Source of the DNA: a virus
DNA length: 38,342 bases
Virus record (IMG/VR): IMGVR_UViG_3300010413_000086
Span: 1 to 38,342 of that record
Reading direction: 5' to 3' (one strand)
The stretch's first letter is position 1. Every line of letters begins with the position of its first letter. The notes below the pieces were generated by a model. It saw nothing but the letters and a program-made list of their open reading frames with translations. It ran no database searches and was not told where the DNA came from. The position numbers and the translations under genes are program-made. This document shows positions 8,560 through 28,412 of this stretch, one piece after another.

Positions 8560-8849
8560 TGAAACAGCGAACGTGTGAGACGTGTAAACGAATCGGCTGG
8601 ATTGCGGCCTTTGTCGCGTTATCCGCCTTCTTGCTTTTTTGCGCACTGTCCGCCGCAGAGGATCAACGAAGGATAGACGCCATGCCAGACGCAAAAGCGC
8701 GTGTGTATGATTTCCAGTTTTTCGAACGGCAGGAGTATTATCTTGAACAACAAATACGATGGAAGCGCGGTCAGACCATCACATGGACGATTTATGACAA
8801 CATGGCCGGTGACGACGGTTGCGCGATTGGGAAAGGAGAGGGTGAATGA
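8559..8849 (+). CDS. Small membrane protein with CxxC N-terminus
   Basis: The 96-residue product starts MKQRTCETCKRIGW, then has a hydrophobic helix (IAAFVALSAFLLFCALSAA, residues 15-33), then a charged soluble tail of about 60 residues. The cytoplasmic CxxC ahead of the helix may hold metal or form a thiol pair. GGGAG precedes the ATG. It is not clearly a holin, being far from the lysis region. Function is unknown. Confidence 0.65.
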   Translation: MKQRTCETCKRIGWIAAFVALSAFLLFCALSAAEDQRRIDAMPDAKARVYDFQFFERQEYYLEQQIRWKRGQTITWTIYDNMAGDDGCAIGKGEGE

Positions 8850-9829
8850 AACTCGATGATATAGGATTTTACACTCTATCCGATGAAAGAGCAAAAAATG
8901 TTAGCTGGAATAGCAGACTGCAAAGATGTGAAATGATATTGACAGACAGATGTAATTTCAAATGCCAATATTGTCGAGGAATTAAAGAAGATTTGCGAGG
9001 CGATTTAACATTTTCCCAAGCCAAAGAGATTGTTGATATATGGAGTAGCGGAGAATTAAAAAATATAAGACTTTCTGGCGGGGAGCCTACTGTTTGGATA
9101 GATTTATATGAGCTTATTATATATATAAAAAGCAAAGGGAATATCAATAGGATTGCTTTATCAACAAATGGTTCGGCTGATCTAGATTATTATTTCAGAT
9201 TACATAATGCCGGTGTTGATGATTTCTCTATTTCTCTCGATGCGTGTTGTTCGATGACTGCGGATGCTATGGCAGGAACTGACGCTAAATTTGAACACAT
9301 AAGTCATGTTATAAAAGAATTGAGCAAAATAACATATGTTACCGTCGGGGTGGTATTGAATAATAGAAACAACATTGAATTAAATAACATAATTGATTAC
9401 GCGACAAATCTTGGTGTTTCGGACATACGTATAATACCGTCGGCGCAAACAAACGAGAGATTAAAAATAAATAGAGAGACGGAATATAAAATACTAAAAT
9501 ATCGTATTTCTAATATAAATAACGGTCGGCATGTCAGGGGTATCACCAAGAACGATTGCCATAAATGCCATTTAGTAAAAGACGATATGGCTATTTTGCA
9601 TGGGCGACATTTCCCTTGTATTATTTATATGAGAGAATTTGGTCAGGCAATTGGTACTGTATACGGAAAATCATTAACACAAATCAGGCAAGAAAGAAAG
9701 AAATGGTTTGAAAAAACAAACACATATAACGATGATATATGCAGGCGCAATTGTCTTGATGTATGCATAGATTATAATAATAGAGTCGAACAGATTAACA
9801 ACACCCCCACCCAGCGGGAGAAGGAGTGA
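8846..9829 (+). CDS. Radical SAM enzyme
   Basis: The 327-residue product has the radical SAM signature LTDRCNFKCQYCRG (C36-x3-C40-x2-C43), which binds the 4Fe-4S cluster that cleaves S-adenosylmethionine. The GGE motif in RLSGGEPTVW (about residues 76-85) and a TNGS strand follow. The C-terminal part has further cysteines (NDCHKCHLV, FPCIIY, DICRRNCLDVC), which suggests a SPASM/Twitch-like auxiliary cluster as in MoaA/PqqE-type enzymes. The substrate is unknown; peptide or nucleotide modification are both possible. AAAGGAG precedes the ATG. It is clearly more AT-rich than neighbours on the left, suggesting separate acquisition. Confidence 0.9.
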   Translation: MKLDDIGFYTLSDERAKNVSWNSRLQRCEMILTDRCNFKCQYCRGIKEDLRGDLTFSQAKEIVDIWSSGELKNIRLSGGEPTVWIDLYELIIYIKSKGNINRIALSTNGSADLDYYFRLHNAGVDDFSISLDACCSMTADAMAGTDAKFEHISHVIKELSKITYVTVGVVLNNRNNIELNNIIDYATNLGVSDIRIIPSAQTNERLKINRETEYKILKYRISNINNGRHVRGITKNDCHKCHLVKDDMAILHGRHFPCIIYMREFGQAIGTVYGKSLTQIRQERKKWFEKTNTYNDDICRRNCLDVCIDYNNRVEQINNTPTQREKE

Positions 9830-14232: not shown

Positions 14233-15672
14233 TTGACCGATAAATTAAACAAAAATATATATATTTCCAGAGCAAAAATACAGGCTATGCAAAAAAGGCC
14301 TGTTCGCAATTTCTTTAAAATCAGAAAAGAGAAAAGAATATTACTTCATGCCATGACCGAAGGTGAGCGGGACATATTAAATCCTGCTATAACCGATGCG
14401 GCTAGTACGTCCGGCGTGGTCGATAAAAACAATTATACAGAATATTCGGCACAAGTTGACCGCCTTTATGAGATGTACGATGCAAGAAGTGATTACGGCG
14501 CGGAAATATGTAAAGGCATTATTGACACATGGGTTGCTTTTATCGGCGGTGAAGGAATAAACGTAACAGCCAAAGGCGCAACAGCTAAATATATAGAGAA
14601 GTTTCTTAAATACAATAAATTAAGCGGCTCAAGATTGCTTGATATGATGACAATCGGAGCATTAGAGGGCCGGTGTCTCACGATATTGAAAAAAGATACT
14701 ACAGATAAAAATATTAAAGTGCGAAATATACCATGGATAACTACAAAGTATGATGTTGAACATGACAAAATCGATATCGAAAATATAAAAAAAATAACAT
14801 ATACAGATGATAATGGAAGTAAGCAGGAATTAAAGGGCGATTATATTTATACAAAACTAGGCGGTTCGCGCTATGATATTAAAAAGACAAGCAATCGGTT
14901 CCATTCTGTTGTAACGCAGATAGAAAACTTTAGCCGGGCCGCATATGATTTACGCAAGAATACGCATGTGTTTGGCAAATATATGCCTTACTGGAAGACG
15001 GCAGATGCACACGAAGCTAAAGCGTTAAACAATCAGCTTACCGGCATTAATTGGGAAATAGGCTATGGATACGCCGGGGCCGCAGATTTTAGTATTGTAG
15101 AACCTTCGGGCGCAGCCGCAAAAGCGATTATTGAAGATATACTGATAAACCTTAAATCAATATCAGCTACTACAGGGTTGCCTATACATTGGCTTGCATG
15201 GCCTGAACTTATGAGTAATAGGGCAACGGCTGATAGTCTTATTGAGGTTATCATGGCCGCCACTAAAAAAGAGCGGTTGATATGGGAAGAAAGCTTTTAT
15301 GATATTATCAAGAAGTCTATGGAAATAGCGGTCGAACAAGGATTCGAGAAATCAAATATTATCGGTGACTTCGAGGTGTCATTGCCAATAGTTTCTATCG
15401 CTTTGCTTAAACAGATAGCGGAAGTCTGGATACCGCTACTTGATGCTGAAATAGTCCATATATCGACGGTAAGAAATAAAGTACCTGGAATTGATCCACT
15501 GGAAGAACAAAAGAAAATAGAAGCCGATGAAAAAGAGGCCGCAGAAAAAAGTCCTATGATAAACAGGACTACGGACGAAACATTAAATCAATTGCAGAAT
15601 GGTCAAAACATAGAACAAGGAGAACAGAATGCCGGTAATGAGAACGGAATCGAGCAGGGAAGGTCTGCGTAA
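14233..15672 (+). CDS. Portal protein
   Basis: The 479-residue product follows TerL and fits siphovirus portal proteins in length and composition. It has an N-terminal wing region with YEMYDARSDYGAEICKGIID, a stem/crown region around LINLKSISATTGLPIHWLAW, then SNRATADSLIEVIMAATKKE, a segment characteristic of portals. The C-terminal tail is acidic and Gln-rich (about residues 440-479) and probably disordered. The dodecameric portal is the DNA channel. The start is uncertain: the TTG at 14233 has no good binding site, and an in-frame ATG at 14287 would remove 18 residues. The 3' end overlaps the next gene by 44 bases. Confidence 0.85.
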   Translation: MTDKLNKNIYISRAKIQAMQKRPVRNFFKIRKEKRILLHAMTEGERDILNPAITDAASTSGVVDKNNYTEYSAQVDRLYEMYDARSDYGAEICKGIIDTWVAFIGGEGINVTAKGATAKYIEKFLKYNKLSGSRLLDMMTIGALEGRCLTILKKDTTDKNIKVRNIPWITTKYDVEHDKIDIENIKKITYTDDNGSKQELKGDYIYTKLGGSRYDIKKTSNRFHSVVTQIENFSRAAYDLRKNTHVFGKYMPYWKTADAHEAKALNNQLTGINWEIGYGYAGAADFSIVEPSGAAAKAIIEDILINLKSISATTGLPIHWLAWPELMSNRATADSLIEVIMAATKKERLIWEESFYDIIKKSMEIAVEQGFEKSNIIGDFEVSLPIVSIALLKQIAEVWIPLLDAEIVHISTVRNKVPGIDPLEEQKKIEADEKEAAEKSPMINRTTDETLNQLQNGQNIEQGEQNAGNENGIEQGRSA

Positions 15673-16156
15673 TTTCTGCCGATATATTCACTCTATAGTA
15701 CCGACAAAGAAATTGCGGCTAGTGGAAATAGGCGCTTTTGAAGGTGATTCAACAGAAATATTTTGCAATTGGTTCAAGGAAGTCGTAACAATCGATCCGT
15801 GGCAAAGCAATATTGGTGATATTACCAATACCGTAAACATGGACAAAGTATATGACAGATTTTGCAAGCGCATGATTAAATATGATAATATCACGGCGTT
15901 GCGGCATTATTCATATGATATAGTCAGTAACTTTGATGATGAGTCTATAGATATCGTATATATAGACGGGTCACATAAATATAATGACGTATTGAGAGAT
16001 TTAAAAGACTGGTTGCCGAAAGTCAAGAAAGACGGATTTATAGCTGGACATGATTACTGCAAGAAGTTTAAGGGCGTTGTCCAGGCCGTCAATCAGACTA
16101 TCGGAAAACCGGATAAAGTATTTAAAGATTATTCCTGGGTAAGGCGTAAAAAATGA
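15629..16156 (+). CDS. SAM-dependent methyltransferase (Methyltransf_24-like)
   Basis: The 175-residue product has class I methyltransferase motif I (LVEIGAFEGDST), the acidic loop (VVTIDPWQ), and IVYIDGSHKYNDVLRDLKDW with GFIAGHDY. The IDG-H-x-Y-x-x-V-x-x-D and G-x-x-x-G-HD elements are typical of Methyltransf_24 sugar or small-molecule O-methyltransferases. AAGGAG lies six bases before the ATG, fixing the start inside the portal gene (44-base overlap in another frame). It interrupts the head gene order, so it is an accessory gene. It may act with the carbohydrate cassette at 21064-28089; this is inference. Confidence 0.8.
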   Translation: MPVMRTESSREGLRNFCRYIHSIVPTKKLRLVEIGAFEGDSTEIFCNWFKEVVTIDPWQSNIGDITNTVNMDKVYDRFCKRMIKYDNITALRHYSYDIVSNFDDESIDIVYIDGSHKYNDVLRDLKDWLPKVKKDGFIAGHDYCKKFKGVVQAVNQTIGKPDKVFKDYSWVRRKK

Positions 16157-19688: not shown

Positions 19689-20111
19689 ATGGCATGTAGT
19701 ATAACGGTCGGCGTCAATTCCTGGGTTACTATAGCGGAAGCCGATGCATATTTCGAAGCCAGATATAACGCTACTGCATGGGCGGGATTGGCGGAGGCTA
19801 ATAAATGTGTTTTATTGCGTCATGCGTATGCCTGGATACAACAGCAAGCTATGTTTAGTATTCCGGCGGCGTCTACGGCACAGATAGTTAAGCAGGCGCA
19901 ATTTGAAACTGCATGGTATATCTATAATTACTTTTCACAGCATGAAAAAAGACGGGCGCTTTATATGCAAGGCGTCAGAGATTTCCAGATATCAAAGTTT
20001 AGAGAAAGGTTGGATATGCCGCAATTCCCCGCGTGGATAGCGGATATGCTTGAGGATTTCCTTGAGGATATAGGCGGTCAGTTTCCGAAGGTAGAAAGAG
20101 ATTTTGAATAA
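19689..20111 (+). CDS. Head-tail connector / DnaT-like adaptor
   Basis: The 140-residue product (VNSWVTIAEADAYFEARYNA, then RHAYAWIQQQ) matches the N-terminal pattern of DnaT-like phage proteins found directly after major capsid genes. These act as head completion adaptors rather than replication factors. It is helical, with the typical SW-T-EADAYF element. AAAGGA lies upstream of the ATG. It overlaps the next gene by one base. Confidence 0.75.
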   Translation: MACSITVGVNSWVTIAEADAYFEARYNATAWAGLAEANKCVLLRHAYAWIQQQAMFSIPAASTAQIVKQAQFETAWYIYNYFSQHEKRRALYMQGVRDFQISKFRERLDMPQFPAWIADMLEDFLEDIGGQFPKVERDFE

Positions 20112-21061
20112 TGGCGAATATAAAGGTAACTGATAAACAGGCGCAAGAACTAGTAAAGCGCTTGGAGCGTGTTAACAACAATCTGGATTCAATAGTCCGG
20201 GAAATAGCAACTACAAAAGAAACAACCAATGTCTTTTGGCGCAGAATAAATAGAGATATCAGAAAGTATTACGATGAAGCCCGCGAAATAACATCTTATT
20301 GGGTAGATGAAACCCTGCCGCGATATTATAGAAAATCCATGCAAGTCCAGATAGCGAAACTAAAAGAACGCACTATCAAAATGCCTAATAAAATAGGTTT
20401 CCGGGAATTGGCAAATAAGGATTCTATAAGACAATCAATCCGCTCTTTAGTATCGGAAACTAATGCAACCTTTGCAACAGGATATTTGAGCGGCGAAAGA
20501 AATATGACGCGGTTGACCAGTTTGACGCAACAGGTGAACTTGAGAGAACGTCAGATTGAAAGAGCAATTGCCGATGGTTTTATTGAAAAAGGCAGCGTTC
20601 GGGGGCCGATCAAGAATATACAATCGCAGTTATTGAAAAAATCACTTGACGGAAAATATATAACGATTATCAACAAAAACGGTAAACCAATGCAGTATGG
20701 CATTAAAAGCTATAGCGAATTGGTGGCACGAACAAAACTAATAGAAACTAGTTCTCAAGCGATAGTCGATACAACGGTAAATGCCGGGTTTGATCTTGTG
20801 CAAGTATCTTCACATAATACTACTACGCCGATATGCCAAGAGTTTGAAGGCAAGATATTTTCATTATCTGGAGGTGATAAAGATTTTCCAGCCGCGACAG
20901 ATTTGCCCCCCTATCATCCAAATTGTAAACATAGTCTGACAACAGTTATCAAAGAAGGCCTTGAAGCGCAAGGCACATTAGAAAAATATGTCGATTTTTC
21001 ACGCGGTGAAACAGAAGTGCATCCGACGCGGACGGCGCATATTCCTGTGTCGCAGAGGTAG
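20111..21061 (+). CDS. Minor head protein (Mu F / minor capsid 2-like)
   Basis: The 316-residue product has a helical N-terminal two thirds. It ends with TTPICQEFEGKIFSLSGG, then DLPPYHPNCKHSLTTVI, the C-x-x-x-G-K-x-F and PPYHPNCKH element of phage Mu gpF / minor capsid protein 2 families. These are internal or portal-proximal head morphogenesis proteins. It marks the end of the head block before the carbohydrate cassette. Length is normal. Confidence 0.85.
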   Translation: MANIKVTDKQAQELVKRLERVNNNLDSIVREIATTKETTNVFWRRINRDIRKYYDEAREITSYWVDETLPRYYRKSMQVQIAKLKERTIKMPNKIGFRELANKDSIRQSIRSLVSETNATFATGYLSGERNMTRLTSLTQQVNLRERQIERAIADGFIEKGSVRGPIKNIQSQLLKKSLDGKYITIINKNGKPMQYGIKSYSELVARTKLIETSSQAIVDTTVNAGFDLVQVSSHNTTTPICQEFEGKIFSLSGGDKDFPAATDLPPYHPNCKHSLTTVIKEGLEAQGTLEKYVDFSRGETEVHPTRTAHIPVSQR

Positions 21062-21063
21062 AA

Positions 21064-21963
21064 ATGGGAGCTATACAGTTACGTGATTTTAAAAGGAATT
21101 ATGAAAAAACAATCAAGAAATTCAAAAAGCAGAATGTTATACAAATAAGGGATTTGAATATGTTAGAAGATGACACCTGGGGCTGGTTTGTCAGAATGGG
21201 ATTTATTGATAGTAACGTTATGCCAATATTAGACTATAAACACATTAATGGGGCTTTGGCAAATAAGCCGATAGCCGTAATAGGGTCGGGATATTCAGGG
21301 CGCGAGATCGAATGGAAAAACCTAAAGAACATATATACCATCGGTATCAATCATATCATCGAGCTATATCATGATCTTGACTATCTTATTTTTCAAGATC
21401 ATAGGTTTTTGCGTAAAAACAAATATCCTTTAGGTCAGTTTAAAGGATTGATATTTGTCGCCACAAGCAACCCGGCTGCCAAGAGGTATGGAATAAAGAA
21501 CATCCGGCCATTTATACCAATAAGCATGAACGCCGAAGTATCGGAGCGGATAGAAAAAGGATTGTATGCAAGAAAAAGTACCGGCCTTTGCGCCTTGAAT
21601 CTTGCCTTGATACTGGGAGGCAACCCTATATACATGATAGGCTTGGACAATCCTAAAGACTGGGAAAAGCAGTTTCCGAATTACAAAGGCGGAATACATA
21701 TTCATCCTAATTATTCTGGAAGCGTTAATACTAAAAAAGCCGCCGATGGATACGTCCCGGTATTACAATATTTCAAGAAGTTTATACGATACAAAAAGCG
21801 GATTGTTAATGTGTGTGAGAATGGTATCATGGACTGGTTTAAACAGATATCAGTTGACCAATTTAATAAAATCATATCAAAGAATATAAAAAATAATGTA
21901 AAGACAGATGACGAAAAGCGACAGGAAAATAAAGAGCAAAGAACGGTAGCAATAAACAGGTAG
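21064..21963 (+). CDS. DUF115 / GT42-like glycosyltransferase candidate
   Basis: The 299-residue product has IAVIGSGYSGREIEWKNLKN (about residues 71-90) followed by TIGINHIIEL and a DYLIFQDHRF strand. Near the middle it has STGLCALNLALILGGNPIYM and then IGLDN. The two halves resemble the CMP-sugar-binding core of GT42 sialyltransferases (AGNGPSLK...N, then SG-x-x-A-x-A-x-x-G-x-x-x-I-x-x-x-GID) and DUF115 proteins. The predicted role is transfer of a nonulosonic acid from its CMP form; the acceptor is unknown. It opens the carbohydrate cassette and follows the minor head gene by two bases. The family call is by pattern; the substrate is inferred from neighbours. Confidence 0.6.
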   Translation: MGAIQLRDFKRNYEKTIKKFKKQNVIQIRDLNMLEDDTWGWFVRMGFIDSNVMPILDYKHINGALANKPIAVIGSGYSGREIEWKNLKNIYTIGINHIIELYHDLDYLIFQDHRFLRKNKYPLGQFKGLIFVATSNPAAKRYGIKNIRPFIPISMNAEVSERIEKGLYARKSTGLCALNLALILGGNPIYMIGLDNPKDWEKQFPNYKGGIHIHPNYSGSVNTKKAADGYVPVLQYFKKFIRYKKRIVNVCENGIMDWFKQISVDQFNKIISKNIKNNVKTDDEKRQENKEQRTVAINR

Positions 21964-21972
21964 GAGGAGATT

Positions 21973-22344
21973 ATGGAAATAAAAGTTAATCTGTGCAAAG
22001 AGATTGTATTAAAAAACCCTAGCGAAAAGGAATTTGAATATCATCTAAAACATTACGATTTATTTATTGTTCTATCTGGAAGTATGAAAATATTGATAGG
22101 TGGTCAAATAGTAACAGAAAAAATAGGCGGAGCATATCGTATTTTAGGAATAAATAAAGAAGAAGAATTAAAAAATTATAATAACGAAAAAGATTTCGGA
22201 ATGGTAAAAGAAACATTTTTTGAAGAAATAATATTGAAAGAAAATGAAAATATTTTAATACCGCCAGGAGTGTTACATAAACCAAGCCTGAAATATGATT
22301 GCCCTAAATGTACTTTTTATGTAGTTAAAATAGCCAAGGAGTAG
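21973..22344 (+). CDS. YhcH/NanQ-like sialic acid anomerase
   Basis: The 123-residue product lines up with YhcH/YjgK/YiaL cupins. EYHLKHYDLFIVLSGSMKIL matches the E-x-H-x-x-YID-x-x-x-x-x-x-G-E-x-I element. NNEKDFGMVKE and IILKENENILIPPGVLHKPS match the later D and F-P-x-x-x-H-x-P elements, and it ends in YVVKIAK. In E. coli YhcH (NanQ) interconverts sialic acid anomers. H-x-P and the early H-x-x-x-D residues could hold the metal. GGAGGAG gives a strong ribosome binding site. It is more AT-rich than the head genes. A role in supplying the correct anomer to the neighbouring pathway is inferred. Confidence 0.7.
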   Translation: MEIKVNLCKEIVLKNPSEKEFEYHLKHYDLFIVLSGSMKILIGGQIVTEKIGGAYRILGINKEEELKNYNNEKDFGMVKETFFEEIILKENENILIPPGVLHKPSLKYDCPKCTFYVVKIAKE

Positions 22345-22348
22345 AATA

Positions 22349-23263
22349 ATGACTATATGTCATGTAATCAGCATGCCAGACATGGAACAGATGGGCGCTA
22401 TTACTCGCCATATTTATGATGAATGTGAAGGTTGGCATATATGGTGCAATGTTTGGGAGAAGCCGCCAGCCGCAGATATTTATATATTGCATTGCTTTAA
22501 GAATCAAAAGCATTTTCCATCATTTATCATGTGGCAGAAGCCAAATAAATCAAAAGTCATATCGGTTATACATTCATCGGAACCTTGTATGCCAGCGCAA
22601 TGTAGCGACGTTGTCGTGACTATCACAAAAGCATGGCAACAGAGGATGAAATGGCTTTATAACATAGATTCGTTAATGATATATGGCGGAATAAATGTAG
22701 ATAAGTACGCAGGCGCGCAAATAGATTATACTAAAAAAGTATTCGGCAAAATAACGCGCCCCGAACCGGGAAAATATCATAAATGCTGGAATCAAATAGT
22801 AACCAATATGATAGAACAGCATGGAGCGACTTGTCGAATAGTAAGTAACGGGTATCAACGAATAAACCATTTAGAACACGATAATATGGTATGGGTTGAA
22901 GGCTTAAAGATAAATGACGATGAAATGAGAATCAAAGAGCTTGAGAAATTGAGCGTATATACAGAATGCCATGATGACGGCGGCAATGCGTTTATTGATA
23001 CTTTTTGCGTGGCTGTTTTAGAAGCTATGGCGGCGGGATTGCCGGTTATAATCTATAAAGGTTTACAAGAAGCTATGGCGGAAGTAATAGGAGATGCAGG
23101 AATAGTATGTGAGAATATAGAGGATTATGAAAGGCATTTAGAATGGATATTGCAAGATGAAGTATCTAAAAGGAAATACGGTCTCGCATCTTTGGAGCGG
23201 GCGCAATATTTCCATAAAGATAAAATGATAAAGGAATGGAATAGACTTTTACAAGGAGTGTAG
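22349..23263 (+). CDS. GT-B (family 4-like) glycosyltransferase
   Basis: The 304-residue product has a C-terminal GT4 signature: VEGLKINDDEMRIKELEKLS, then CVAVLEAMAAGLPVIIYKGL, then EVIGDAGIVCEN, including the E-x7-E-type EAMAAGLPVI nucleotide-sugar loop. The N-terminal Rossmann half has DIYILHCFKN and VISVIHSSEP. These enzymes transfer a sugar from a nucleotide-sugar donor with retention. Donor and acceptor are unknown. A good AAGGAG binding site precedes the ATG. It probably builds or extends the glycan acted on by neighbouring genes. Confidence 0.85.
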   Translation: MTICHVISMPDMEQMGAITRHIYDECEGWHIWCNVWEKPPAADIYILHCFKNQKHFPSFIMWQKPNKSKVISVIHSSEPCMPAQCSDVVVTITKAWQQRMKWLYNIDSLMIYGGINVDKYAGAQIDYTKKVFGKITRPEPGKYHKCWNQIVTNMIEQHGATCRIVSNGYQRINHLEHDNMVWVEGLKINDDEMRIKELEKLSVYTECHDDGGNAFIDTFCVAVLEAMAAGLPVIIYKGLQEAMAEVIGDAGIVCENIEDYERHLEWILQDEVSKRKYGLASLERAQYFHKDKMIKEWNRLLQGV

Positions 23264-23264
23264 A

Positions 23265-23411
23265 ATGAAAAACTGGATTGGCACATTAAGAGTTAAAGTC
23301 AAAGTTGAAATGTCATTATGGGATGCTATTAAGTTAAGAATAGCTGGTATGGATAAGCCGTTTAAGAAAAAAATAACTATTGATGAACTGATAAAAGAAG
23401 GCAAGTCATGA
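23265..23411 (+). CDS. Hypothetical 48-residue protein
   Basis: This short frame starts six bases after AAGGAG (23253-23258) and overlaps the next gene by four bases (ATGA), so it is well embedded in the operon. The product (MKNWIGTLRVKVKVEMSLWD, then a basic MDKPFKKKITIDELIKEGKS) is a small basic alpha/beta peptide. No family is recognised. It could be a phage virion or regulatory peptide unrelated to sugars. Confidence 0.6.
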   Translation: MKNWIGTLRVKVKVEMSLWDAIKLRIAGMDKPFKKKITIDELIKEGKS

Positions 23412-23953
23412 AAATAGCCGCTATCAGTTGTGCAAGAATGGCAAGCACCAGGTTCCCTGGGAAATGTCTTGCTTTGTTAAACGGTAAGCCTTTACTACAA
23501 TACACAATAGATTTTGCCAAAGAAATCAATATACCTTTATATATCTGGACAAGAGATATTGAGATAATGGAATATGTGAAAGATAAGTGTCCGATTATTT
23601 ACGAACCTAAACATTTATACGATACTAAAGAAGACACGACACGCGAAAAAATGGCTTTTGCCAATAAGATTATAGACGCTGACTATTTAGTGCTATTGCA
23701 ACCTACGCAACCGATAAGGGGCGTTGTTGAAAAATCAATAATAGATTCAGCGGTTGGGTTATGTCTTGGATATGCTTATAGCGGTGAAAAAGGATATCCA
23801 GATGGTCGGATATATGTCTATTCAAGAGGATATTTTTTTCAAGAAGATTGCGAATATGGATGGCATGTACCAGATTTTGACTATTTCGACATAGACACTA
23901 AAGAAGATTTGGAAAGGTGCGAAAAATGGCTACAAGCACAAGAGTCTGGCTAG
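23408..23953 (+). CDS. NeuA/SpsF-like cytidylyltransferase
   Basis: The 181-residue product begins MKIAAISCARMASTRFPGKC, the AR-x-x-S-x-R-x-PGK nucleotide loop of acylneuraminate/KDO cytidylyltransferases (PF02348). NGKPLLQYTIDFAK and YLVLLQPTQPIRG follow, matching the family's L-QPT-P-R element. It ends with DFDYFDIDTKEDLERCEKW, like family C-termini. The reaction is CTP plus a 2-keto-sugar acid giving a CMP-sugar and pyrophosphate. It is shorter than typical NeuA (about 220-230 residues), so it may be a minimal form or act on another acid. It overlaps the NeuB-like gene. Confidence 0.8.
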   Translation: MKIAAISCARMASTRFPGKCLALLNGKPLLQYTIDFAKEINIPLYIWTRDIEIMEYVKDKCPIIYEPKHLYDTKEDTTREKMAFANKIIDADYLVLLQPTQPIRGVVEKSIIDSAVGLCLGYAYSGEKGYPDGRIYVYSRGYFFQEDCEYGWHVPDFDYFDIDTKEDLERCEKWLQAQESG

Positions 23954-24774
23954 AGTTTGGTTGTAATCATAATGGCATACTCGATAACGCCTATAAAATG
24001 ATAGACGAAGCTGTAAAGCTTGGAGTCTGGGGCATAAAGCTGCAAAAGCGCGATTTAACACAATTAGAATATGGAGCAAAATATATACCGCGTGATGATG
24101 ATAATTCCTTCGGGAAAAACTATTACGAACATCGGGCGGCGCTTGAATTTGATACAAAGCAAATAGAAGAGCTTAAGAACTACGCAGAAAAACAGAAGCT
24201 TGAAGTTGTAGTAACAGCATTTGATATAAACAGCATCCGTGAAATGTTTAAAATAGGAATCAAATATATAAAGATACCGTCTCAATTATTAAGCAATTAC
24301 GAAATAAACAGAGAGCTTGTAAAAACGAAAGAGAAATCGCCATTTTTTAATATTATCTGTAGTACGGGGATGCATACAATAAGTGAAGTCATAGAATGGC
24401 AATATATAAAAGATTTTGACGTTGTTATGTATTGTAAGTCGATATATCCGGCAAAAGCAAATCAAATGAATATGGCGAATTTTAGGTATTTACAAGAGAA
24501 TCTTAAAAACGCCGTTGGTTATTCAAGCCATGACGAAAACGGCTTCGCTATTCCATGTGCTGTAATTCTTGGTGCGCGATATATAGAGCGACATTATACA
24601 TTAAATAAGGCCATGAAGGGGTCAGATCATAGTACGGTCTCAAGTGATTATTTCGAAATGCAAAGGATTATTGAAGAGATAAAATACGCTGAAAAAATAA
24701 TGGGTAATGTCGAACTGACAGAATTGAGGGCAGAAGAGGAAAAACAAATAAAAAGAAGGTATAGGAAAATATAA
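23926..24774 (+). CDS. NeuB-like sialic acid synthase
   Basis: The 282-residue product has the NeuB TIM-barrel signatures in order: VWLEFGCNHNGILDNAYKMI (residues 8-27), WGIKLQKRDL, VVTAFDINSI, YIKIPSQLLSNYEI, IICSTGMHT, VGYSSHDENGFAIPCAVILG, and YIERHYTLNKAMKGSDHSTV. Residues such as the E at the start, N-H-N and the H of IERH match the active site that condenses ManNAc or ManNAc-6-P with phosphoenolpyruvate. The C-terminal SAF (antifreeze-like) domain of about 60 residues, normally present and covering the active site, is absent. ATG 23926 is preferred after AAAGGTG; a GTG at 23917 is in frame. Confidence 0.85.
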   Translation: MATSTRVWLEFGCNHNGILDNAYKMIDEAVKLGVWGIKLQKRDLTQLEYGAKYIPRDDDNSFGKNYYEHRAALEFDTKQIEELKNYAEKQKLEVVVTAFDINSIREMFKIGIKYIKIPSQLLSNYEINRELVKTKEKSPFFNIICSTGMHTISEVIEWQYIKDFDVVMYCKSIYPAKANQMNMANFRYLQENLKNAVGYSSHDENGFAIPCAVILGARYIERHYTLNKAMKGSDHSTVSSDYFEMQRIIEEIKYAEKIMGNVELTELRAEEEKQIKRRYRKI

Positions 24775-25388
24775 TGTTTATGCCGAGACCATTTGATGCA
24801 GATTATAGGCGATACGTAGGGCCGGATAGCAAATATGATATTATAGCCGCCAACCAGTTCATAGCGTTAATAAATAATGGATTAAGAGAATATCATACAA
24901 TTTTAGATATAGGCTGCGGAACTATGAGGGTGGGCCGCCTTTTAATAAACTATTTACTGCCAGAAAGATATTACGGCATAGAACCGAATAAAGAAATATA
25001 TGATTTAGCCTGCAAAAATGAAATCGGGCTTGAAATGGAAGCGTTAAAAAAGTTTGTCGTTTGTCACATAGATGACTTCAATCTAAATCATTTCGGTATT
25101 GTAAGATATGATTATATTCTGGCACATTCTATATTTTCGCATACGTCAAAAAGCCAGTTAGAAAAATGTATTAAATCGGCAAAGACAGTATTGAAAGAAA
25201 AAGGCGTATTCCTTGCTACATATATCGAGGGGCCGGATAATAAAAAAGAAGATTGGTCATATCCAAACGGAATAACATTTCGATATGAGACTATAAAGCA
25301 GATATGTAGATTAAATGGGCTAAAGTGTGATAAGATGGCCTTGAAACATCCTGGAAATCAAACGTGGATAAGGATTGAACATGGCTAA
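24774..25388 (+). CDS. SAM-dependent methyltransferase
   Basis: The 204-residue product has class I motif I (ILDIGCGTMRVGRLLINYLL), YYGIEPN as the acidic strand-2 end, and FDYILAHSIFSH with the downstream LKEKGVFLATYIEG typical of Methyltransf_11-type enzymes. The start overlaps the NeuB stop by one base. It sits between synthase and epimerase genes, so it may O-methylate a sugar of the same pathway, but the substrate is not shown. It overlaps the next gene by eight bases. Confidence 0.82.
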   Translation: MFMPRPFDADYRRYVGPDSKYDIIAANQFIALINNGLREYHTILDIGCGTMRVGRLLINYLLPERYYGIEPNKEIYDLACKNEIGLEMEALKKFVVCHIDDFNLNHFGIVRYDYILAHSIFSHTSKSQLEKCIKSAKTVLKEKGVFLATYIEGPDNKKEDWSYPNGITFRYETIKQICRLNGLKCDKMALKHPGNQTWIRIEHG

Positions 25389-25671
25389 ATATTATGTAGA
25401 TGACATTGTAGAAATAATAACGGCGCAATATAATAATTGGGATGATATTCCAGCATGTGAAAGAGGGTATTTCGAAAATCAAAATACTTATGCGCCAACA
25501 AGAGGACAAAGATTTAGGGTAGTAATGATTGATACTACATATAAAAATGAAATACGATTATATGGAAGTTATAAATTAGGATTGAGTGCAATTACAGAAT
25601 GCGTGATGCTATATAAAAGGCCATTAAAAAATAAAATAAAAGCGTTATTTGATAGAGGTGAATATGCTTGA
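25381..25671 (+). CDS. Hypothetical protein, similar start to a head-tail protein
   Basis: The product is 96 residues. Its opening (KYYVDDIVEIITAQYNNWDD) resembles that of the downstream head-tail gene at 28086 (EDYLTDTIDIITRLYDKWGA): same length, and shared D-I, I-I-T, Y and W positions. The rest does not obviously align. AAGGA is seven bases before the ATG at 25381. It may be a duplicated or decayed piece of a head-tail gene carried in with the cassette, or an unrelated protein. Function is unknown. Confidence 0.55.
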   Translation: MAKYYVDDIVEIITAQYNNWDDIPACERGYFENQNTYAPTRGQRFRVVMIDTTYKNEIRLYGSYKLGLSAITECVMLYKRPLKNKIKALFDRGEYA

Positions 25672-26290
25672 ACGTGGAATTATAGTTTCAATACAAGGAT
25701 ATCATCAAAAGACGATTGAAGAGTTGGCAAAAAATGCTATTAACGCCGGGGCGGTTGCTATTAGAACGGATAAGCCTATCCACTTTTCACCATATGAGAA
25801 AAAAGTACCACTCATAGGATTAAACAAATCTAAAGTAGTAAATCCAGAAATAACGCCATATATAACGCCGGATCTTGAATCAATAATAAGCGTTTCTAAA
25901 TGGGCCGAATATATAGCGATTGATTATCGACAACTAAATCCTAATCTTAAAAAAATAAGTGATTATTGCAAAGAGCAGAAACTAAACATCGTGGCGGATA
26001 TTGGATCATGGAAAGATTTTAACAATATCAAAGAGAATGACTATTATTATACATATATAGCGACATCATTTTCAGTATTTGATATCATGTTTTTTCCAGA
26101 TAAAGAACTGTTAAGCAAAGTATGCAAGATTGAAAAAAATGTAATAGCCGAAGGCAACTATAAAACACGCAAGGATGTAAAAGAGGCTTTGGAGATAGGC
26201 GCTTGTAATGTATGTATCGGAGGCGCAATATCAGACGTTTATAAACTAACAAGGAAATTCACGACGGTTAGCTATGCAGTTCGTAATTGA
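25664..26290 (+). CDS. NanE-like ManNAc-6-phosphate 2-epimerase
   Basis: The 208-residue product follows the NanE TIM-barrel order: GIIVSIQGY (residues 5-13), NAGAVAIRTDKP, VPLIGLNKSKV, ITPYITPDLESI, YIAIDYRQLNP, NIVADIGSW, NVIAEGNYKTRKDVKEALEI and GACNVCIGGAISDVYKLTRK. The K of NKSK, the D of ADIGS and the E of AEG correspond to conserved catalytic positions. NanE interconverts ManNAc-6-P and GlcNAc-6-P. Normally catabolic, here it may run toward ManNAc-6-P to feed the NeuB-like synthase. AGAGGTG precedes the ATG at 25664. It overlaps the HAD gene by 17 bases. Confidence 0.82.
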   Translation: MLERGIIVSIQGYHQKTIEELAKNAINAGAVAIRTDKPIHFSPYEKKVPLIGLNKSKVVNPEITPYITPDLESIISVSKWAEYIAIDYRQLNPNLKKISDYCKEQKLNIVADIGSWKDFNNIKENDYYYTYIATSFSVFDIMFFPDKELLSKVCKIEKNVIAEGNYKTRKDVKEALEIGACNVCIGGAISDVYKLTRKFTTVSYAVRN

Positions 26291-26591
26291 TATTGACGAT
26301 ACCATAATCTATAGCAACGAATCAAAATGTTTTGGATGCGGGCGCAATCTATACGAAATGATAAAAATAGATTGGGTAGAAGTATCAAGAGTAAATAAGC
26401 TATATGACGAAGGGCATACGATCATACTTTATACCGGGCGTGGATGGGATTGTTATGAAAAAACAATAGAACAGTTAAAACTCGCAGATATTAAATATCA
26501 TGAATTAGTTATGGGCAAGCCTTTGGGCATATATGTAGACAAGGATTCAATCAAGACATTAGAGGGTATAAATGATAATCAATCGGAATAA
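26274..26591 (+). CDS. Small HAD-family phosphatase candidate
   Basis: The 105-residue product has HAD motif I (FVIDIDDTII, D6-x-D8-x-T10), motif II (ILYTGRGWD), a lysine motif III (VMGKPLGI) and motif IV-like VDKDS. It lacks a cap domain, like short phage or capsule-locus HAD proteins. In context it is a candidate for removing phosphate from ManNAc-6-P or from the sialic acid 9-phosphate, giving a complete NanE-NeuB-phosphatase route. The substrate is inferred from neighbours. It overlaps the genes on both sides. Confidence 0.75.
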   Translation: MQFVIDIDDTIIYSNESKCFGCGRNLYEMIKIDWVEVSRVNKLYDEGHTIILYTGRGWDCYEKTIEQLKLADIKYHELVMGKPLGIYVDKDSIKTLEGINDNQSE

Positions 26592-26808
26592 ACTATGGAA
26601 AGCTATAGGGTATAGAGTATCTGCTTTTTGTTTGATAACTCTTGTTAGTTATATCTTCACAGGGAAAATAGAAATATCTTTGTTTATAGCTATTAGTGAA
26701 TTCATTATAAAGCTGGTTATGTATTACGCCTATGATGTTTTATGGGACAAAATAGAGCCTATGATAGTTAAAATGTGGGAAAAACTAAAAGGAATATTCA
26801 GGAGGTAA
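26572..26808 (+). CDS. DUF2061-like membrane protein
   Basis: The 78-residue product has two hydrophobic helices (about residues 14-29 and 34-55). It matches DUF2061 layout: KAIGYRVSAFCLITLVSYIF, a TGK turn, then SEFIIKLVMYYAYDVLWDKI. DUF2061 proteins often occur next to sulfate- or sugar-activation genes, and their function is unknown. AGAGGGT precedes the ATG. Here it stands before two sulfotransferase genes, consistent with that association. Confidence 0.7.
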   Translation: MIINRNKLWKAIGYRVSAFCLITLVSYIFTGKIEISLFIAISEFIIKLVMYYAYDVLWDKIEPMIVKMWEKLKGIFRR

Positions 26809-26811
26809 ATA

Positions 26812-27420
26812 ATGCTTTTAATCGCAATGCCAAAATCAGCAAGTACAAGTCTTGCCGCAACTATCGCGCAAATAGCCGGTTTGAAATGTAGCCTTGGTGT
26901 ACCGAGTATGAAGATAGACATACCATGCGAAGGATATGAAGAAATACAACATTATCATAATAATATGTGCGAAAGGTCGCCGTTATTTTTAGGGCAAACG
27001 GTAAACGGCAGAAAGACTATATTCAAAGAGCATATTTTACCGACTGACCGCCATTTAAAAATACTAAAGAAGTTAGGGAAGGTGGTAATATTACTTAGAA
27101 ATCCAGACGAGGTTGCCGATTGCTATAAACGATTGGATGAGGCGCATTTCAAAAAAACGGGAAAGCATATAGATACTGATAAAATATTTAAAGAAATGTG
27201 CGAATTCCATGATAGATGGCAATGGTGGAAATCAACAAATAAAAACGCAATCTTAGTGTATTATGAAGACTTAGTAAAAAACTATCGGGCAACGATGAAA
27301 AAGATATTAAAACATTACGGATTAAGCGGAAAGATCATACCTTTAAAAAAACTAAAATATACAGGCGTTGGAGTCGCAAGAATAAAAGAAGCGGAGAAAG
27401 TCAATAATGAAGATAGCTGA
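26812..27420 (+). CDS. Sulfotransferase-like protein 1
   Basis: The 202-residue product opens MLLIAMPKSASTSLAATIAQ, the P-loop-like PAPS-binding 5'-PSB motif of sulfotransferases (PKSAST). It has a 3'-PB-type VVILLRNPDEVADCYKRLDE and a later ILVYYEDLVKNYRATMKKIL, which matches the family's YEDL element. It would transfer sulfate from PAPS to a hydroxyl, probably on a sugar. No PAPS synthesis gene is seen, so host PAPS would be needed. It is paralogous to the gene at 27526, with a 39-residue membrane peptide between. AGGAGG precedes the ATG. Confidence 0.82.
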   Translation: MLLIAMPKSASTSLAATIAQIAGLKCSLGVPSMKIDIPCEGYEEIQHYHNNMCERSPLFLGQTVNGRKTIFKEHILPTDRHLKILKKLGKVVILLRNPDEVADCYKRLDEAHFKKTGKHIDTDKIFKEMCEFHDRWQWWKSTNKNAILVYYEDLVKNYRATMKKILKHYGLSGKIIPLKKLKYTGVGVARIKEAEKVNNEDS

Positions 27421-27526
27421 AATAATTGTCTTTATTTTATTGGTGATCGTTTTATTGATAGCGGTAATAATAATTGCAATCGCGGCTTTTTATGCGGCGG
27501 CTAATTTAAGTCATGGGGTGCAGTAA
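27407..27526 (+). CDS. 39-residue membrane peptide
   Basis: This tiny frame overlaps the first sulfotransferase end and the second sulfotransferase start (TAATG). The product is nearly all membrane helix (IIVFILLVIVLLIAVIIIAI), with a short tail LSHGVQ. GGAGAAAG lies about seven bases upstream. Such single-helix peptides may anchor or regulate neighbours, or act as holin-like peptides; none is shown. It is too short to place in a family. Confidence 0.55.
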   Translation: MKIAEIIVFILLVIVLLIAVIIIAIAAFYAAANLSHGVQ

Positions 27527-28089
27527 TGTTATTGATAGCGCAGCCTAAAAGCGCCAGCACGTCTTTGATGTGGTCATTATCAGAAATAATGAAAGTGCCG
27601 ATGAAAAACGGGACTAATAGAAAACAAAGTGATATAAATTGTCCAGGATACGATCAATTACAAATCTATCACGGAACTATGGTCAAACGTAGTTACAAAT
27701 ATCTCAAAGAATACATTACAAATAACGTGCTATATAAGGAACATATCTTGCCGGTGCCTGAACATTTAAAAAGTATTGATGATATCGGGAAGCCGGTTGT
27801 TGTTCTTTTGCGTGATCCGAAAGAATGTATAGAAAGTTATAAAAGAGTATTAAGCGTTATTTATGACAAAAAGATAGATTATGATGAAATGGAAAAGGAG
27901 TTATACCAATTTAACGAAACCTATTCGCAATTGACTAATAACAATATTTATATGATAATAGATTATAGGGAAATAGTAGACGATTTTATAAATACAATTA
28001 AAAAAGTATTGTTACATTACGGAAAAGATATACCTAATGATGTAGAACGTTATAGACTGCAAAAGAGAAATTATACGTGGTCTAAGTGA
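27526..28089 (+). CDS. Sulfotransferase-like protein 2
   Basis: The 187-residue product mirrors the upstream paralogue: MLLIAQPKSASTSLMWSLSE as PAPS loop; KPVVVLLRDPKECIESYKRV as 3'-PB (R-D-P-x5-S, closer to consensus than copy 1); and IDYREIVDDFINTIKKVLLH. Shared framework LYKEHILPVPEHL and FKEHILPTDRHL confirms duplication. The sequences have diverged well beyond recent duplication, so they probably act on different positions or acceptors. It is the last gene of the carbohydrate cassette, overlapping the head-tail gene by four bases. Confidence 0.82.
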   Translation: MLLIAQPKSASTSLMWSLSEIMKVPMKNGTNRKQSDINCPGYDQLQIYHGTMVKRSYKYLKEYITNNVLYKEHILPVPEHLKSIDDIGKPVVVLLRDPKECIESYKRVLSVIYDKKIDYDEMEKELYQFNETYSQLTNNNIYMIIDYREIVDDFINTIKKVLLHYGKDIPNDVERYRLQKRNYTWSK

Positions 28090-28412
28090 TTGAAGATTAT
28101 CTGACTGATACCATAGACATTATAACACGACTCTATGATAAATGGGGCGCTTTAATTAGCACAAACACACAATCTAATGTGAAAGCGCGTATTGAAGATC
28201 AAAACAAAATGGTTAGAAATCAAGAAGGAAAAGAAGTGGCCGGGAAAGGGCCGATATTCATAATAGATTCTGCTGCAGTTGAATATGAAAGCGTTATCAA
28301 GCTAAAAACAATAAACGGCGTGGCGACAATAGAACCGGATAAAGAATATCCGCTTAAAAGCATAGAGCAATCACATGGCTTTGAAGGCTCACACTGGGAG
28401 GTCTATATATAA
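28086..28412 (+). CDS. Head-tail joining / head closure protein candidate
   Basis: The 108-residue product begins with GTG and reads IEDYLTDTIDIITRLYDKWG, with NVKARIEDQNKMVRNQEGKE in the middle. The VKARIE-x-x-N-x-x-V-x-x-x-x-G element is typical of small head closure/adaptor proteins preceding tail completion genes. The ribosome binding site is poor, so translation is likely coupled to the upstream stop. Structural gene order resumes here after the cassette. Confidence 0.65.
   Translation: MIEDYLTDTIDIITRLYDKWGALISTNTQSNVKARIEDQNKMVRNQEGKEVAGKGPIFIIDSAAVEYESVIKLKTINGVATIEPDKEYPLKSIEQSHGFEGSHWEVYI

Follow-up and report, generated by a model that had tools for sequence, protein, structure and literature searches.

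A candidate nonulosonic acid synthesis and transfer cassette within the head gene region of a phage lineage

IMG/VR virus record IMGVR_UViG_3300010413_000086 is a 38.3 kb stretch of viral DNA, hereafter called the window, to which all cassette coordinates refer. Its late genes follow a siphovirus-like order, with terminase (12378), portal (14233), protease/scaffold (16935), capsid (18641), head adaptor (19689) and a MuF-type minor head protein (20111) upstream, and head closure (28086), neck (28412), tail terminator, tail tube (29298) and tape measure (30481) downstream. The 7.0 kb between the end of the MuF gene (21061) and the start of the closure gene (28086) is filled by a block of genes, the cassette, whose predicted products resemble enzymes that make and transfer nonulosonic (sialic-acid-like) acids, such that virion genes flank these enzymes on both sides (terminase, portal, capsid and MuF to the left; closure, neck and tail to the right). 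Every gene that the initial annotation had named in this block is present and intact on the plus strand where it had been placed, and two further genes, coding for a DUF2061 membrane protein (26572-26808) and a small open reading frame (ORF; 25384-25671) product, extend that list. Cassette gene ends overlap or almost abut, and we found no strong plus-strand terminator inside the block. A promoter search gave no signal (52 found versus 43 +/- 8 expected). The cassette is probably co-transcribed with the head genes, and its expression is expected to be late. The borders and central enzymes are as follows.

20111..21061, plus strand: MuF-type minor head protein, left border (PHROG 4611, E = 1e-37); adjoins the closure gene directly in 13 sister phages
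21064..21963, plus strand: Maf/GT42-like nonulosonate (sialic acid) transferase, 299 amino acids (phrog_4603; PF01973 in relatives; predicted fold)
22349..23263, plus strand: GT-B (group 1) glycosyltransferase (PF00534, Glycos_transf_1, 1e-7); in 13 of 14 cassettes
23408..23953, plus strand: compact NeuA/KdsB-type cytidine monophosphate (CMP)-sugar synthetase, 181 amino acids (PF02348)
23926..24774, plus strand: NeuB-family nonulosonate (9-phosphate) synthase without a SAF domain (PF03102)
25664..26290, plus strand: NanE, N-acetylmannosamine 6-phosphate (ManNAc-6-P) 2-epimerase (PF04131)
26274..26591, plus strand: small HAD phosphatase (phrog_1238, 9e-16; capsule biosynthesis protein 9iqw, 3e-6)
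28086..28412, plus strand: head-closure/head-tail joining protein, right border (no PHROG match); syntenic in relatives, with the cassette on one side and neck and tail genes on the other

Profile searches placed the NeuB-, NanE- and NeuA-like genes in the families proposed for them at the outset, each above its Pfam cut-off. The synthase matches the PF03102 catalytic domain with E = 2e-45 (155.5 bits, cut-off 22.1), and its nearest relative in the PDB is 6ncs, described as a sialic acid synthetase with a chain of just 290 amino acids; 8h2c is also matched. NeuB-family synthases from eight phages share invariant catalytic positions, which we take to correspond to contacts with phosphoenolpyruvate (PEP), metal and sugar. 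NanE matches PF04131 at 7e-15 (55.1 bits, cut-off 27), its profile matches PDB entries 1y0e (6e-24) and 6vva, and positions Q11, K55, D87 and E163 are invariant, presumably as the residues expected in an epimerase active site. The short NeuA protein matches CTP_transf_3 (PF02348) at 2e-9 (38 bits, cut-off 22.6) and retains an N-terminal R..S.R..GK loop, a QPT.P.R-type motif and a C-terminal D.D motif. The top PDB match of its family profile is the CMP-N-acetylneuraminic acid (CMP-Neu5Ac) synthetase 6ifd (3e-26), with 1qwj also matched, and Foldseek comparison of its model returned 2y6p, 1eyr and 6ifd. Family membership and modeled fold thus both predict a CMP-sugar synthetase. The HAD protein, by its matches, appears to belong to a small phage/capsule-type HAD family.

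The gene that directly follows MuF was originally annotated as DUF115/GT42-like, and structure prediction bears this out. Its product matches phrog_4603 ('alpha-2,3-sialyltransferase') at 1e-7. On its own it has no significant Pfam match, PF01973 (Maf/DUF115/MptE) falling below cut-off with E = 0.03; 12 of 20 members of its family match PF01973, with a best value of 9e-6 that was not set against the curated cut-off. An AlphaFold model built from 20 phage sequences, with a pLDDT (predicted local distance difference test) of 79, finds as its nearest folds in Foldseek first Maf (5mu5, 4.9e-5) and then CstII (1ro7, 1.1e-4), with probability 1.00, followed by an MptE-type enzyme and human sialyltransferases (ST8SiaIII, 5bo9). 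Searching the family profile against PDB sequences gave only sub-threshold matches, with GT42 and Maf entries ranked near the top. Because the TM-scores of the model against its structural matches are modest (0.35-0.45), we place the transferase at the level of fold only, as a predicted Maf/GT42-like enzyme. In many relatives it is fused to the GT-B domain as a single enzyme of 550-610 amino acids. Maf enzymes O-link Neu5Ac to Ser/Thr residues of flagellin (PMC11339370).

Relatives were gathered by a capsid-only search, which yielded 23 loci and cannot favor carriers of NeuB. The transferase gene lies directly after MuF in 15 of the 15 capsid-found loci that read past MuF, and 12 of the 13 loci that extend over 3 kb beyond it also contain NeuB; the sole NeuB-less locus (L011) is cut off early, and L115, a partial contig that closely resembles it, carries NeuA and KdsC further along. 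When 14 complete MuF-to-closure intervals were compared for gene content, transferase, NeuA and NeuB were found in all of them, the GT-B gene in 13 and NanE in 12, whereas the tailoring genes vary. The minimal cassette (L142) comprises transferase, NeuA, HAD and NeuB. Because 14 phages carry the same gene set, chance can be excluded as its cause. Ratios of nonsynonymous to synonymous substitution (dN/dS) of approximately 0.05-0.3 between relatives indicate that the cassette proteins are under purifying selection. The G+C content of the cassette is lower than that of its flanks in 13 of 14 phages (34.7% versus 42.1% in the window).

Each of the 14 intervals also holds exactly one type of phosphatase, which is the small HAD protein in 10 and a KdsC-type enzyme in four, and the types have switched at least three times on the capsid tree. 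The KdsC-type phosphatase matches the Bacteroides-type structure 3e81 at 1e-20, and in one phage (L099) NeuA and KdsC form a single fusion protein, an arrangement also seen in some cellular enzymes. Since one phosphatase is always kept, whichever its origin, there is good evidence that a phosphorylated intermediate must be dephosphorylated, and the fact that every interval has one or the other of two unrelated types supports a route through a 9-phosphate.

A search with MuF recovered phages that have the same order of genes from portal to tail tube and in which MuF is joined straight to closure. Thirteen of these empty-site phages form one clade of the capsid tree (support 100/96) as against 22 cassette-bearing phages, and the tree needs one change between the two states, with the long-branch loci L154-L156 unsettled. 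Given these empty sister sites, the cassette appears to be a discrete insertion that was gained once or a few times and then kept. Two of the long-branch distant relatives (L154:3598-9027 and L155:3854-4543) have a Maf/DUF115-like gene placed between capsid and head adaptor, and in L154 GT2-like and methyltransferase-like genes come after it, making up a distinct glycan island that is linked to the head genes and lacks NeuB.

Other phage lineages also have NeuB sets with NeuA, NanE and either HAD or KdsC, which a single-sequence NeuB search of viral contigs missed entirely and an alignment-based search detected. Two of these sets adjoin terminase (L038:257-4800 and L052:123-3992), and a third (L028:3732-8254) has the order transferase-HAD-NeuA-NeuB, followed by a sulfotransferase-like gene. 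The gene order in these unrelated lineages, beside terminase or packaging genes, suggests repeated recruitment to the head region. Among 50,697 phage genome records, none carries the same transferase/NeuB cassette; the top NeuB matches there come from three records, uncultured or misfiled, and share 27-31% identity. The terminase has relatives in phages of mixed hosts, with identities of no more than 40%.

Taken together, the profile matches, the structures, the conserved residues and the retention of the genes across phages strongly support a route to a CMP-sugar by way of the predicted enzyme activities. In the proposed scheme, NanE would convert N-acetylglucosamine 6-phosphate of the host to ManNAc-6-P, the NeuB-family synthase would condense this with PEP to yield a nonulosonate 9-phosphate, the HAD or KdsC-type phosphatase would strip the phosphate, and the NeuA-type enzyme would form the CMP-sugar. 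The Maf/GT42-like transferase, aided by the often-fused GT-B transferase, would then act in the cytoplasm, either ahead of virion assembly or in the course of it, to attach the sugar to Ser/Thr residues of a virion protein, and methyl- and sulfotransferases would vary the glycan. Overall, we consider it reasonably probable that the block is a nonulosonic acid synthesis-and-transfer cassette of the virion assembly operon, making a CMP-nonulosonic acid via a 9-phosphate for cytoplasmic transfer to a virion protein. The initial annotation had proposed a sialic acid pathway that decorates virions or the cell surface, with its location suggesting virions: the pathway is supported by the evidence above, and decoration of the particle is the best inference from the location of the genes, the Maf-like transferase and the lack of identified export or lipid-linked machinery, with no acceptor identified. 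The phage thus probably coats its own particles with a sialic-acid-like sugar, with a virion protein as putative acceptor and a presumed benefit to the phage; such a coat would be a form of virus decoration about which little is known.

Several observations weigh against this interpretation. First, the synthase scores 159 bits (1e-46) against NCBIfam TIGR03569, under the equivalog cut-off of 399.65, and for this reason we name it NeuB-family only. It also lacks the C-terminal SAF domain, being 282 amino acids long with a Pfam match that stops at the barrel. Second, NanE scores under its NCBIfam cut-off and is absent from two cassettes (L128 and L142), in which the host may supply the precursor or a different sugar phosphate may be used. 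Third, NeuA matches synthetases for 3-deoxy-D-manno-octulosonic acid (KDO) as well as those for sialic acid, and its specificity signals differ, with the family profile favoring 6ifd and 1qwj and the single sequence favoring KdsB. Fourth, a search of virion proteins for acceptors, in the form of Ser/Thr columns specific to cassette-bearing phages, revealed no excess over a reverse control, and a search for the host with capsid and transferase against genome contigs gave no match.

The main rival explanation, which we regard as unlikely, is that the nonulosonic acid is placed on the host cell surface (e.g. lipopolysaccharide or capsule), where it would block superinfection or change the adsorption of released phage. 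Surface polysaccharide loci also contain GT-B and sulfotransferase genes, and phage lipopolysaccharide-type gene sets, one with NeuA, have been interpreted as changing the host surface (PMC5332604). However, the cassette genes include no identified flippase, polymerase or undecaprenyl-linked transferase, and the closest match of the predicted transferase is Maf, which glycosylates proteins in the cytoplasm. We favor a virion protein over the cell surface because of this Maf-like transferase, the location of the cassette embedded in the head genes, its probable late co-transcription with them, and the lack of an identified export gene.

If the cassette does decorate protein, its product might still be a related acid, for example ketodeoxynonulosonic acid (KDN) or KDO, and not an N-acetylated sialic acid. 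The closeness of NeuA to KdsB, the two cassettes without NanE, and the match of the cassette KdsC to 3e81, which we take to be the KDN-9-P phosphatase BT1713, are in line with this idea. We nevertheless judge it rather improbable, since NanE in 12 of 14 cassettes indicates ManNAc-6-P, the NCBIfam score of the synthase is highest for NeuB_NnaB (159 bits) as opposed to PseI (104), and we identified no dehydratase or aminotransferase of the legionaminic or pseudaminic acid type. That the block serves to break down sialic acid, or is cargo taken up by accident from bacteria with no virion role, is very improbable despite its low G+C content and the catabolic role of NanE and YhcH genes in bacteria, as we identified neither the lyase NanA nor the kinase NanK, NeuB and NeuA act in biosynthesis, and the genes occupy the same position in every complete cassette and are under purifying selection. 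DNA modification was also considered and rejected, the block having no identified DNA-sugar transferase or base hydroxylase.

The remaining genes of the block, some with putative tailoring roles, are listed here together with a methyltransferase gene near the portal.

15629..16156, plus strand: Methyltransf_24/TylF-like methyltransferase beside the portal gene, outside the cassette (PF13578, 1e-17)
21973..22344, plus strand: YhcH/NanQ-like cupin, possible sialic acid anomerase, lower confidence (PF04074, DUF386, 1e-6; 29.3 versus 26.5); in 2 of 14 cassettes
24774..25388, plus strand: S-adenosylmethionine (SAM) methyltransferase, putative sugar tailoring (Methyltransf_12, 9e-10)
25384..25671, plus strand: small conserved phage ORF (no Pfam match)
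26572..26808, plus strand: DUF2061 small membrane protein (PF09834, 1e-12)
26812..27420, plus strand: sulfotransferase 1, putative tailoring enzyme (Sulfotransfer_3, PF13469, 2e-8); same family in L022, L099 and L128
27526..28089, plus strand: sulfotransferase 2, tandem homolog of sulfotransferase 1 (PF13469, 2e-4, below cut-off; family profile 5e-83)

Of 22 cassette-bearing phages, 16 encode a Methyltransf_24 enzyme, either beside the portal or within the cassette, and none of the 13 empty-site phages does; these counts ignore relatedness. Among the cassettes, the Methyltransf_12-type methyltransferase is found in the window only. So too is the DUF2061 protein, whose gene directly precedes those for the two sulfotransferases, and a link to the supply of sulfate or 3'-phosphoadenosine-5'-phosphosulfate is possible. 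The small ORF shares 72% DNA identity over 145 bases with a hypothetical gene of a Rhodobacteraceae phage, and is probably a mobile passenger. In cassette phages we also observed MuF proteins with long C-terminal extensions (L011:6638-8602, L113:7681-9453 and L014:10084-11697) and a portal ORF of 799 amino acids (L012:1545-3944), which could be acceptors or extra enzymes. Outside the cassette, the window encodes a radical SAM protein (8846-9829) and a single tRNA, tRNA-Ile with a TAT anticodon (2618-2693). In a related phage, a gene classed as radical SAM by sequence motif (L007:5915-6691) sits between those for portal and scaffold. Because the window has no terminal repeats, the genome ends are undefined.

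The predicted pathway resembles the animal-type CMP-sialic acid pathway (NANS, NANP, CMAS) and the Bacteroides KDN pathway (BT1713-BT1715), in which synthase, 9-phosphate phosphatase and CMP synthetase likewise act in series and a KdsC-type phosphatase adjoins or is fused to the synthetase. Unlike these, the phage cassette resides in a virion operon, is supplied with precursor by NanE, has a synthase without SAF, and mostly uses an unrelated small HAD phosphatase. With Maf flagellin glycosyltransferases (PF01973) and the GT42 enzyme CstII, the transferase shares its predicted fold, a glycine-rich loop and an SG...GxD motif, and a CMP-nonulosonate donor is expected; in contrast to Maf, it is far shorter, often fused to GT-B, and encoded beside head genes rather than flagellin. 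Mycobacteriophage virion glycosylation (Freeman et al. 2023, as cited in PMC12619734) similarly involves phage enzymes expected to decorate virion proteins; the window phage would differ in also producing the activated acidic sugar itself. A parallel is offered by Cafeteria roenbergensis virus (PMC9614988), a eukaryotic giant virus with a putative KDO pathway, in which the virus likewise encodes the synthesis of a CMP-activated ulosonic acid and a phosphatase dedicated to one of its steps.

Phage virion glycosylation, glycan pathways of giant viruses, and the presence of NeuA and NeuB in viral sequences are already known, and single sialic acid genes in viral sequences are usually interpreted as auxiliary genes for changing the cell surface. 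In the literature searched, coverage of which was incomplete, we did not find a complete sialic acid pathway described for the head operon of a phage. Here a complete predicted route, from amino-sugar phosphate to transferred CMP-sugar, occupies one fixed site of the head operon throughout a diverse group of phages and is missing from the sister group, which makes self-sialylation by phages directly testable. The cassette would also supply compact enzymes, including a SAF-less NeuB, a NeuA of 181 amino acids and a small Maf-like transferase. More tentatively, as a proposal falling somewhat short of probable, sialic acid made by the phage itself may be a central virion component on which the whole lineage depends, with a cassette as constant as the neck genes and a minimal, phage-specific O-sialyltransferase acting directly on a head or tail protein, and with similar sets having arisen more than once beside terminase or head genes. 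Self-sialylation of this kind would bear on the charge of virus particles and on their recognition by hosts and in mucus or biofilm.

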